This document shows positions 20,174-23,556 of a stretch of 64,000 bases of DNA, one piece after another. The translations under genes were made by a program, and so were the position numbers. The stretch lies in the NCBI RefSeq assembly GCF_003851885.1, contig NZ_BHZE01000012.1:1-64000 (forward strand). Direction: 5' to 3'. The notes below the pieces were generated by a model that was not told the DNA's origin, did not search any database, and worked only from the letters and a program-made list of their open reading frames with translations. Within the stretch, counting starts at the first letter, position 1. Each line of letters begins with the position of its first letter. The DNA is from Thermaurantimonas aggregans (lineage in GTDB: Bacteria > Bacteroidota > Bacteroidia > Flavobacteriales > Schleiferiaceae).

Positions 20174-21253
20174 ATGAGCGAACAAATTTTTTTTGCTGTA
20201 TTTATTGGGGTTATTTTCCTGATTCTTGCTTTTGATTTAGGCGTTTTCCAGCGAGAAAAACATGAGGTGTCCTTTCGTGAAGCGCTTGTCTGGACATCTG
20301 TTTGGTTTGGGTTATCCATTGGATTTTACTTTTTTTTGAAATTTTACGGTCATTGGATACACAATCCGAAGTCAATTGACGAGATTTTATACATCACAGA
20401 AAAATACCGACAAAAACTGGACATTACAGGTTTGAGCTTCGACCAGGCCCTGCAGAGATATCGGAATCTCATCGCTTTGGAGTATCTGACAGGTTATTTT
20501 ATCGAGTACAGCCTTTCGGCCGACAATCTGTTTGTGATTTTATTGATATTCAGAAATTTTGGGGTGCGAAAAAGGGATTACAAGACCATTTTGATCTGGG
20601 GCATCCTAGGGGCTGTCATCTTTCGATTCACCTTTATTTTTCTTGGGGCGGAGTTGATTCAGCGGTTTCACTTTTTGCTGTACCTATTTGGTGCATTTCT
20701 GATGTATTCGGGATTTAAGGTGCTGACCAGCAAGAAGGGAGACGAAGACATCACCCCCGAAGGTCATCCACTGGTGAGGCTCACCAGCAAGTATCTCAAC
20801 GTATTTCCACGCAATGTGAAGTCGCTGCTCATGTTTCGCCACCCCGACGACCGAAAGACGTACGTCACTCCACTTTTTATTGTACTTCTGTTGGTGGAAT
20901 TCAGCGATATCATCTTTGCTGTGGACAGCGTTCCGGCCATTTTTTCCATCACGTTAGACCCGTATATCGTCTTTTTTTCCAATATTTTTGCTATTTTGGG
21001 ACTTAGGAGTTTGTTTTTTCTGTTGGCCAAGGTGGTCGATTTATTTCACTACTTGACGTATGGGCTTGGTATATTATTGATTTTCATTGGCCTTAAATTA
21101 GTATTTGAGCACTACTTCGACCTGTGGGGCATCCAGGCCTTTGAGTCGTTGATGGTAGTGGTATTGATACTCGCTCTTTCAATTGCTGCCAGTCTGATTC
21201 GCAGCAGGGTGTTGATTTGGAAGGATAAAAAATCCCGGCCTTCTCTAAAGTAA
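20174..21253 (+). CDS. TerC/Alx family integral membrane protein
   Basis: A 359-residue polytopic membrane protein of the TerC/Alx family; characterised members are linked to Mn2+ export and metal homeostasis, and others to tellurite resistance. About eight hydrophobic helices. Signature segments: SLSADNLFVILLIFRNFGV (residues about 113-131) and VEFSDIIFAVDSVPAIFSIT, each with the acidic residues conserved in the family. It is likely monocistronic and faces the minus-strand gene at 21298. Its final codons overlap a minus-strand terminator hairpin, and its last 90 bases are duplicated 1860 bases downstream. No alx-type pH-responsive leader is visible. Substrate inferred only from family. Confidence 0.9.
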   Translation: MSEQIFFAVFIGVIFLILAFDLGVFQREKHEVSFREALVWTSVWFGLSIGFYFFLKFYGHWIHNPKSIDEILYITEKYRQKLDITGLSFDQALQRYRNLIALEYLTGYFIEYSLSADNLFVILLIFRNFGVRKRDYKTILIWGILGAVIFRFTFIFLGAELIQRFHFLLYLFGAFLMYSGFKVLTSKKGDEDITPEGHPLVRLTSKYLNVFPRNVKSLLMFRHPDDRKTYVTPLFIVLLLVEFSDIIFAVDSVPAIFSITLDPYIVFFSNIFAILGLRSLFFLLAKVVDLFHYLTYGLGILLIFIGLKLVFEHYFDLWGIQAFESLMVVVLILALSIAASLIRSRVLIWKDKKSRPSLK

Positions 21254-21585
21254 AGAAAACCGGGATTCTGTAGAAATTTGCCTTTGGCTCGGCTACATTA
21301 AAACGTCAGCATAAAGCCTATGTAGTTATTCCACCTTTCACTACCGGAGCCCAAATCGAGATGAAATCGAACGCCAATTTCCCGCATTTTATTTTCTGAA
21401 GTAAGCGTCCCTAAAGAGAAGCCCGGAATGAAGAAAAAGCGCGGACGGATATTCTCTTGAAGAATGGTTGCCGAGCCCAATCCGGAAAACAGATTTATAA
21501 AGAATTTTTCTGTAATTCTGTAGGAGTAGCGCAAGTTTACGTTGTATTGGACAAATAGGTTTACATCCGACGAAGTTTGTTGGAA
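21162..21585. repeat. Segmental duplication, copy A (3' end of terC plus 3' half of the 21298 gene)
   Basis: This stretch recurs at 23022-23445 with a constant offset of 1860 bases. Positions 21241-21478 are base-for-base identical in the two copies; the first 80 bases differ at three sites, and beyond 21478 identity falls markedly, with no indel visible. Confidence 0.9.
21227..21267 (-). terminator. Terminator for the 21298 gene, inside the terC 3' end
   Basis: Outer stem AATCCCGG / CCGGGATT with an inner TTCT / AGAA pairing; on the minus strand it is followed by six T. It lies 30 bases after the minus-strand stop at 21298 and overlaps the last codons of terC. The same hairpin is present in the duplicated copy at 23087-23127. 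Confidence 0.7.
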
Positions 21586-21846
21586 AGCGCCAAATTGCAT
21601 GGTATTTTGTACAGATAGGAGATTTCGATTTCTGTCGTCCAAATACGTAGCTGAAATAAAATCATTAAAAAAACCGTAGTAAAAGCCAGCGTACCCTACA
21701 TTGTCGATGTTCAGCTGTATAAAGGCAAATTCCGGTGTTGCCTTTGGAATCGTTTCAGATAAAGTTTTTTGGGCATTTAATTGTTGAACAAGAAACAATG
21801 CTGGGATTAAAATTCCAATATTTTTACAGAAATTCGAATTTTTCAT
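21298..21846 (-). CDS. Secreted or outer-membrane beta-barrel-like protein, family unknown
   Basis: A 182-residue protein with signal peptide (NIGILIPALFLVQQLNAQ, cleavage after LNAQ). The mature part alternates hydrophobic and polar residues, is rich in aromatic residues (GYAGFYYGFFNDF, LRYSYRITEKFF) and ends in a terminal Phe (YIGFMLTF), as outer-membrane beta-barrels do. Specific family not recognised. It is preceded by a predicted lipoprotein gene ending 16 bases upstream on the same strand, so the two probably form an operon. Its 3' half is duplicated at 23158-23445 as a pseudogene with an in-frame stop. Confidence 0.7.
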   Translation of the reverse strand: MKNSNFCKNIGILIPALFLVQQLNAQKTLSETIPKATPEFAFIQLNIDNVGYAGFYYGFFNDFISATYLDDRNRNLLSVQNTMQFGAFQQTSSDVNLFVQYNVNLRYSYRITEKFFINLFSGLGSATILQENIRPRFFFIPGFSLGTLTSENKMREIGVRFHLDLGSGSERWNNYIGFMLTF

Positions 21847-21862
21847 ACCTTCAATTTTTTAT

Positions 21863-22672
21863 TTATAAATTTTCTCTTACAAGAGCTGAACCATAAGTTG
21901 AAATTTGTCCACCTGTGTATGCACCAACTGCATAGCCTAAAATGCCTCCTCCAAGGTAGCCGCCTATTAAATAATCGCATGCGTAACCAGCTACATCTGC
22001 TGTAACTACGGCAAAGCCTTTTAATATTTTACCCCAAGGAATTCTTGCGTTTGAAATTAAGTTGTCTGAATTTATATAATTTAATACATAAGGATAAAAA
22101 GGATTGGATATATCACCTTTCATTATTTCTGTCCAATAAAATAATGAATGTCTAAATACTGATGTCATCCCCAATATTAATTTCAATTCGTAATCAATTA
22201 GATTATTACTACTAATAATAGTATTTTCTAAATATTTAATTTCGTTTATTATATCTTCTAAATTTTCTAAATCGTACTCACGATTTAAAATGTTGAGAAT
22301 TTCATCATAGTATGATTTAAAATTTAGACTTAAATCATATTGCTCAATTAGCAAATTAATTAAACCATCAAAATTTGAAGAAGAGGAATAATACCATGAT
22401 AATGATGCTAATGAATCAATGATATTGCCATCTAGATGATAATCAATATCTTTATTATAATAACTATCATAGAAATTCTTAATGTTCATGCCTAAATCTA
22501 TTGTATCAAATCCTTCAAGTGTGGTTAAGTAATCAAGACATAAATTATGTAAAATTCCTATGGAGTCATAAATATTATTTTGATTTTCAACAAAAGATGG
22601 ACTTGAGTAAGATTTATCTTTTAAATTAACTAAATTTATTTCATTTTTTTTACAACCTAATAAAAAAAGCAC
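21863..22672 (-). CDS. Predicted lipoprotein with glycine-zipper C-terminus; no normal start codon
   Basis: About 269 residues from the only usable in-frame initiator, a GTG. That start leaves just MLFLLGC before the lipobox Cys, too short for a signal peptide. Extending the frame upstream gives an ideal lipoprotein signal (KKSSKYIKFFILGNILFVLFLLGC) but contains no ATG, GTG or TTG back to a TGA beyond the 13-bp repeats; ATT would be the only nearby alternative. The body is very AT-rich (Asn/Asp/Ile/Leu/Tyr). The C-terminus has a glycine-rich hydrophobic segment (GGYLGGGILGYAVGAYTGG). Operon with the 21298 gene. Either the start was lost, or expression needs a change in the repeat. Family not recognised. 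Confidence 0.6.
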   Translation of the reverse strand: MLFLLGCKKNEINLVNLKDKSYSSPSFVENQNNIYDSIGILHNLCLDYLTTLEGFDTIDLGMNIKNFYDSYYNKDIDYHLDGNIIDSLASLSWYYSSSSNFDGLINLLIEQYDLSLNFKSYYDEILNILNREYDLENLEDIINEIKYLENTIISSNNLIDYELKLILGMTSVFRHSLFYWTEIMKGDISNPFYPYVLNYINSDNLISNARIPWGKILKGFAVVTADVAGYACDYLIGGYLGGGILGYAVGAYTGGQISTYGSALVRENL

Positions 22673-22750
22673 AAAAAGTATATTACCTAGTATAAAGAAT
22701 TTAATATATTTTGAACTTTTTTTAATTAAATATCTGTCGAATAAAATAAT

Positions 22751-22835
22751 TTGAAGTTTCCGGTTGAAGTTTCCGGTTGAAGTTTCCGGTTGAAGTTTCC
22801 GGTTGAAGTTTCCGGTTGAAGTTTCCGGTTGAAGT
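22751..22835. repeat. 13-bp tandem repeat, six full copies plus 7 bases
   Basis: The unit TTGAAGTTTCCGG is repeated perfectly six times, followed by TTGAAGT. No spacer is present, so this is not a CRISPR. The array is about 80 bases upstream of the GTG of the predicted lipoprotein gene and is free of stop codons in all three minus-strand frames. The unit length is not a multiple of three, so loss or gain of a copy shifts the frame. Confidence 0.97.
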
Positions 22836-23021
22836 CTAAATTTGCTTTCAAAATTTATAAATTTTGATTTTCAAAAATATAAAGATATTATTTATTAAAA
22901 AATAAAAAAAATTTAACAGATTTAAATTTAATACATAATTAACATTTTTTGTCAACCAATCAGTTATTAATTGAAGATTCTAAGCTTTTTTTAACTCTCT
23001 TACAATCCTTGTTTGAGTTAA

Positions 23022-23113
23022 TATTGATACTCGCTCTTTCAATTGCTGCCAGTCTGATTCGCAGCAGAGTACTGATTTGGAAGGATAAAAAATCCCGGCC
23101 TTCTCTAAAGTAA
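23022..23113 (+). pseudogene. Detached 3' end of terC (second copy)
   Basis: These 92 bases repeat the last codons of terC, reading LILALSIAASLIRSRVLIWK up to the same stop, with three substitutions in the codons for RVL. There is no start codon or upstream terC sequence, so this is a remnant left by a duplication. Confidence 0.85.
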
Positions 23114-23157
23114 AGAAAACCGGGATTCTGTAGAAATTTGCCTTTGGCTCGGCTACA

Positions 23158-23445
23158 TTAAAACGTCAGCATAAAGCCTATGTAGTTATTCCACCTTTCA
23201 CTACCGGAGCCCAAATCGAGATGAAATCGAACGCCAATTTCCCGCATTTTATTTTCTGAAGTAAGCGTCCCTAAAGAGAAGCCCGGAATGAAGAAAAAGC
23301 GCGGACGGATATTCTCTTGAAGAATGGTTGCCGAGCCCGATCCGAAAAAAAGATTTAGAATGAATTTTTCGTCAATTCTGTAGGATTAGCGCACATTTAT
23401 ACTGTATTGAGCAAACAGGTTTATATCCGAAGAAGTTAAGTTAGT
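23158..23445 (-). pseudogene. Truncated copy of the 21298 outer-membrane-like gene
   Basis: The C-terminal 60 residues (ending SERWNNYIGFMLTF) are identical to the intact gene. Further upstream the copy has diverged, and a TAA replaces the Tyr codon of the LRYSYRI segment. No signal peptide or start remains. Because the diverged part looks like an older paralog and the identical part like a recent copy, gene conversion is plausible. Confidence 0.8.
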
Positions 23446-23556
23446 ATGTGTCAAATTGACAATTTATAATAGGTTTTAGTGAAAATTACAGCCATTTTGT
23501 CGTGTTTTTCACAATGGATAAATCCTTGTTAATAGCTTGTGGAAAACTTTTTAAAT

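Follow-up and report, generated by a model that had tools for sequence, protein, structure and literature searches.

Introduction

Among the described systems that come close to the locus presented here are exported-protein genes preceded by short tandem repeats and genes started at an AUU codon. The nadA gene of Neisseria meningitidis is a simple-sequence contingency locus with its repeats upstream of the open reading frame, and infC is a gene started at AUU. AGAT repeats upstream of uspA2 tune its expression in Moraxella catarrhalis (PMC7302503). The pcnB gene of Escherichia coli starts at ATT, as cited in PMC13009471, and cvfC1 of Staphylococcus aureus at AUU (PMC13009471). Non-canonical initiation in S. 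aureus accompanies extended Shine-Dalgarno motifs (PMC13009471); Shine-Dalgarno sequences, as stated in PMC9976891, are not recognised by the ribosomes of Bacteroidia. In Flavobacterium, an A at position -3 is favourable for the start (PMC6847099).

The window, that is, the whole stretch of DNA that was analysed, comprises 64,000 nucleotides of Thermaurantimonas aggregans (contig NZ_BHZE01000012.1, positions 1 to 64,000). As in uspA2 (AGAT) and nadA, a perfect tandem repeat lies here close upstream of an exported-protein gene. Unlike in those systems, the unit measures 13 bp, the gene has no standard start and the array occupies a single locus in the Schleiferiaceae, a free-living and moderately thermophilic lineage. 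With bacterial minisatellites (VNTRs) the array shares, as far as one assembly allows the likeness to be drawn, a unit longer than 9 bp, perfect adjacent copies, a position outside any open reading frame with a standard start, and a partial last copy. The gene also resembles infC and pcnB in that an ATT stands where a start codon would be expected, but no Shine-Dalgarno mechanism is expected in Bacteroidia and the ATT is here a candidate start.

The reading preferred in this work, with a probability of about 0.6, is that the leader of a rearranged, probably decaying cassette carries a minisatellite formed by slippage, and that the lipoprotein gene of this cassette has lost its start or keeps a very weak one. 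A contingency locus with 13-bp units in the Schleiferiaceae that would either tune a surface lipoprotein-barrel pair, by way of leader or promoter length, or gate it by way of a TTG at 22851, the pair being otherwise devoid of a usable start, is unlikely; the contingency reading of the locus is possible but unsupported. If the array did switch the gene, repeat-driven phase variation would be extended to a free-living Bacteroidota lineage, with a unit size rarely met in such switches. As things stand, the locus is chiefly a marker of an uncharacterised family of lipoproteins, which often come with an exported partner and are prone to duplication and decay.

The 13-bp Array

The array (22751-22835) consists of 6.54 perfect copies of TTGAAGTTTCCGG, which reads CCGGAAACTTCAA on the strand of the gene; six units are complete and the last stops after seven bases (TTGAAGT). 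In the TRF output it is one array of period 13 with 6.5 copies, 100% matches and a score of 170, which is far beyond chance and has no equal within the window. This agrees with the preliminary description, which had placed six perfect copies and a partial one ahead of a minus-strand gene at 21863-22672. In the whole 2,671,880-base assembly, an exact pair of units is found at one locus only and, when three mismatches are allowed, matches elsewhere in the genome are no commoner than those of a reversed control. Across the 88-genome family set, a search for degenerate versions likewise gave this locus alone, and the exact array was not found in the genome and viral collections (genome_contigs, viral_contigs), plasmids or phages. 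A dispersed or mobile repeat was rejected on account of this single genomic locus and of the lack of matches in those collections. Being made of head-to-tail copies of a unit in the range of about 10-100 bp at one locus, the array corresponds to a bacterial minisatellite; as a perfect tandem repeat in a promoter, leader or 5' coding region, it also has the form of a contingency locus.

At the ends of the array, a unit is flanked on either side by TTGAAGT, which suggests an origin by slippage between short direct repeats. A 20-bp stretch, TTGAAGTTTCCGGTTGAAGT (the 13-mer between two TTGAAGT 7-mers), may have been expanded by this process into the present array. The identity of the units fits a recent expansion and, with it, real instability, although a contingency locus would show the same. 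An error of assembly or consensus, leaving a wrong start codon or a wrong number of units in the draft, is highly improbable: the assembly is a draft of 57 contigs and short tandem arrays can collapse, but 85 bp fit inside a normal short read, completeness is 99.93% with 0.07% contamination, and the surrounding frames are clean.

Contingency through transcription or the length of the leader, with unit changes between promoter and gene tuning the lipoprotein-barrel operon, is not very likely. In its favour, the array is perfect, has many copies and is placed close ahead of an exported-protein operon, and upstream repeats do tune expression elsewhere, in uspA2 (PMC7302503). A possible promoter also lies upstream of the array, since in a pattern scan TATTTTTG (22872-22879, minus strand) matched TAnnTTTG, the -7 box of Bacteroidota. 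The match is weak and possibly due to chance (about 0.2 are expected, by estimate, in a stretch of such length and composition), and no -33 element was seen with it; if it is real, the array sits in the leader. Against such tuning, TRF detected no other perfect short-unit array with at least three copies in the baseline of 883 kb of stretches, about one third of this genome, which argues that switches of this kind are not in general use in that third. The absence of a similar array from the 88-genome family set counts in the same direction, as do the four relatives whose upstream DNA was read, none of which has an array at the corresponding position, and the fact that the gene behind the array would still have no standard start.

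Folding of the leader RNA is unremarkable (z -0.87), and no Rfam element was found in the window stretch. Plasmid iterons next to an A+T-rich origin were rejected because the adjacent gene encodes a member of the lipoprotein family and not a replication protein. Long tandem repeats (418-424 bp) and 41-bp G+C-rich arrays occur elsewhere in the genome (L144 3467-4768, L137 15988-16779, L128 2967-3302, L115 5183-5367).

The Lipoprotein Family

Judged by its sequence, the gene downstream of the array is a member of an undescribed Bacteroidota lipoprotein family. Pfam and NCBIfam assign no family to the protein. As a single sequence it has weak relatives in four genomes of its taxonomic family, and a profile built from five members matches in 28 of 395 sampled Bacteroidota genomes. 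An alignment of 16 members (the window protein and 15 relatives) shows what they have in common: the lipobox Cys, GxxHN, the Ser of RHSL and a glycine-rich hydrophobic C-terminus, with a Trp nearly always present after RHSL. The window protein carries the lipobox Cys, GxxHN, the RHSL Ser and the Trp (in an RHSLxYW-like motif), as well as the C-terminal glycine-rich tail, and, as often in the family, an exported partner is encoded downstream. Unlike the other members, it has no ATG, GTG or TTG ahead of the signal, and its gene is very A+T-rich. In all 15 aligned relatives the N-terminal signal follows straight after the start codon; in the window copy, only ATT codons stand directly before a signal of at least 16 residues.

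A DUF6861 match in one relative is limited to its glycine-rich tail. The AlphaFold2 model of the lipoprotein has a helical core of moderate confidence (mean pLDDT 59), for which there is no PDB match at E <= 0.001. In two genera, sequences directly 5' of lipoprotein family genes give sub-threshold matches to the Rfam cis-regulatory RNA DUF805b (L027 2312-2344, minus strand, 28.3 bits; L025 1350-1382, plus strand, 16.9 bits; gathering threshold 35.6). Another locus, L098 2030-4341, holds two family members in tandem, with nearly identical signals and diverged mature parts; by their sequences, the pair would be another sign of duplication in the family.

Reading Frames and Candidate Starts

Followed upstream on the minus strand, the lipoprotein frame meets its first stop, a TGA, at 22873. 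Its first conventional start codon, the GTG at 22670-22672, falls inside the signal sequence and would leave the lipobox Cys at residue 7. The frame translates as IKKSSKYIKFFILGNILFVLFLLGC, a textbook lipoprotein signal. The preliminary description had noticed this signal, the openness of the frame through the array, and the lack of any ATG, GTG or TTG above the GTG; the frame listing bears out all three. It had also reported that every frame is open across the array, which is true and yet uninformative: whichever of the three frames is read, the 13-mer lacks a stop codon, so that open passage through the array is automatic and is not evidence of coding. In this sense, the locus illustrates that a repeat may leave a frame open, and thereby mimic coding, for trivial reasons.

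Read from the ATT at 22726, the gene spans 21863-22726 on the minus strand according to the family alignments and the frame listing, with the lipobox Cys at residue 25 and the motifs GxxHN and RHSLFYW followed by the C-terminal glycine-rich tail. A second candidate start, the ATT at 22703-22705 (minus strand), would place the Cys at residue 18. A signal of the length usual in the relatives and in other lipoprotein-like open reading frames is obtained only from these two codons; in about 0.86 Mb of this genome, 18 such open reading frames have their Cys at residues 16-41, as found with a pattern that is blind to very short signals. The best candidate for a lost start is ATT AAA AAA AGT at 22726, which is one base away from ATG.

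A functional gene started at ATT 22726 or 22705, weakly and possibly under autoregulation, with the array as a fixed element of the 5' untranslated region or operator, is quite unlikely. In its favour, the 269-codon frame is intact with its family motifs, a Cys at residue 25 or 18 gives a normal signal length, and ATT is known as a rare initiator (PMC13009471). Nevertheless, AUU initiation in S. aureus is tied to extended Shine-Dalgarno motifs (PMC13009471), to which the ribosomes of Bacteroidia are blind as far as PMC9976891 describes them, and both candidate codons have a T at -3 in place of the favourable A (PMC6847099). These features make initiation at ATT less likely, although still possible. 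The broken state of both paralogues in the genome also speaks against a functional gene.

The preliminary description had further proposed that each gain or loss of a unit changes the frame or the promoter spacing. In simulations of copy number, one start does enter the lipoprotein frame, the TTG at 22849-22851 (minus strand), which belongs to another frame running through the array and joins that of the lipoprotein only after the gain of one unit or the loss of two; none of the copy numbers tried brought in an ATG. The fusion would read LKANLDFNRKLQPETS...IILFDRYLIKKSSKYIKFFILG...LLGC. A translational switch of this kind, initiating at TTG 22851 and continuing through the array, could yield a fused frame of 333 aa (+1 unit) or 320 aa (-2 units), but it is very improbable. 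The signal would be preceded by 46 (+1) or 33 (-2) mostly polar residues, unlike in any of the 15 relatives compared, the initiator would be a TTG and not an ATG, and the present copy number would correspond to the 'off' state. Phase variation of a surface lipoprotein and its partner barrel gene, as first suggested, has found no positive support, its sole translational switch producing such an atypical N-terminus.

Neighbourhood, Paralogues and Probable Decay

The partner gene (21298-21846, minus strand) begins 16 bases after the end of the lipoprotein gene and encodes a predicted exported, beta-strand-rich (barrel-like) protein, whose AlphaFold2 model is of low confidence (pLDDT 34) and gives nothing usable beyond strand content. 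Comparable exported strand-rich partners are found in the relatives L025 and L027, while that of L026 is exported but different. Lipoprotein gene and array lie in an A+T-rich segment (21846-23020) of 22-26% G+C, against about 42% in a sample of the genome; the lipoprotein gene itself has 26% G+C and a GC3 of 16%. A resemblance between this segment and A+T-rich DNA of contig C37 was dismissed as low complexity.

The segment is bracketed by a 435-bp direct repeat. The left copy (21162-21597) contains the 3' end of terC, a terminator and the portion of the barrel gene that encodes the C-terminus, and the right copy (23022-23458) a barrel fragment with two in-frame TAA codons. The copies share 266 identical bases (21213-21478), followed by 22 mismatches in 112 bases. 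This combination of an identical core and a diverged end suggests an old duplication whose core may have been recently converted between the copies. In the two nearest genomes, the MAG CALFUW01 of the same genus (TerC 87%) and Schleiferia thermophila DSM 21410 (TerC 81%), neither the lipoprotein, nor the barrel, nor the array is present beside terC.

The profile search found only two further family members in this genome, both on contig C3 (L091 4241-4960 and 5423-6144), with 701 of 718 aligned bases identical and an exported 163-aa partner gene between them. In each, the frame is broken by a TAA that stands in place of the tyrosine codon of a conserved NPYD motif and is common to the two. Neither these paralogues nor the direct repeat, the two ATT codons and the TTG at 22851 had figured in the preliminary description. 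Given these broken paralogues and the missing start in the window, none of the three genomic copies has a normal 5' end. Antigenic variation from silent cassettes was rejected, as the profile finds only three copies, the two on C3 are broken, and none of the three is an intact expression copy.

Decay is favoured by the missing start, the paralogues with their common stop, and the rearranged, partly pseudogenised flank. This part of an earlier alternative, in which a repeat had invaded a gene in decay, is thus backed by the data, but 'invaded' is probably wrong, local slippage being likelier. The loss of the start is, on its own, modest evidence. Against decay stand the intact 269-codon frame in a gene of 26% G+C and its conserved residues, which indicate selection until recently or still; the start is missing, yet frame and family motifs are intact. 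The ATT starts of pcnB and cvfC1 are a further point against it. According to the preferred reading of a minisatellite in a decaying cassette, an A+T-rich lipoprotein-barrel cassette would have been acquired, or have strongly diverged, and been rearranged later. The minisatellite in its 5' leader would probably be neutral or nearly so, a change in unit number altering the length of an untranslated leader and nothing more. The lipoprotein gene has probably lost its ATG, the ATT at 22726 being the best candidate for the former start, and may now be untranslated, as an incipient pseudogene, or weakly read from an ATT. We infer the slippage origin of the array, the loss of the ATG and the lack of a switching function.

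On contig C3 of this genome (G000), the paralogue pair (L091 4241-6144) adjoins a gene for a Dam-like methylase and a likely restriction gene, both functions being predicted from the sequence. At about 4055-4185 of L091, a palindromic element extends from GCCCAACACGGG to CCGTTAGC and appears to resemble an integron attC-like site.
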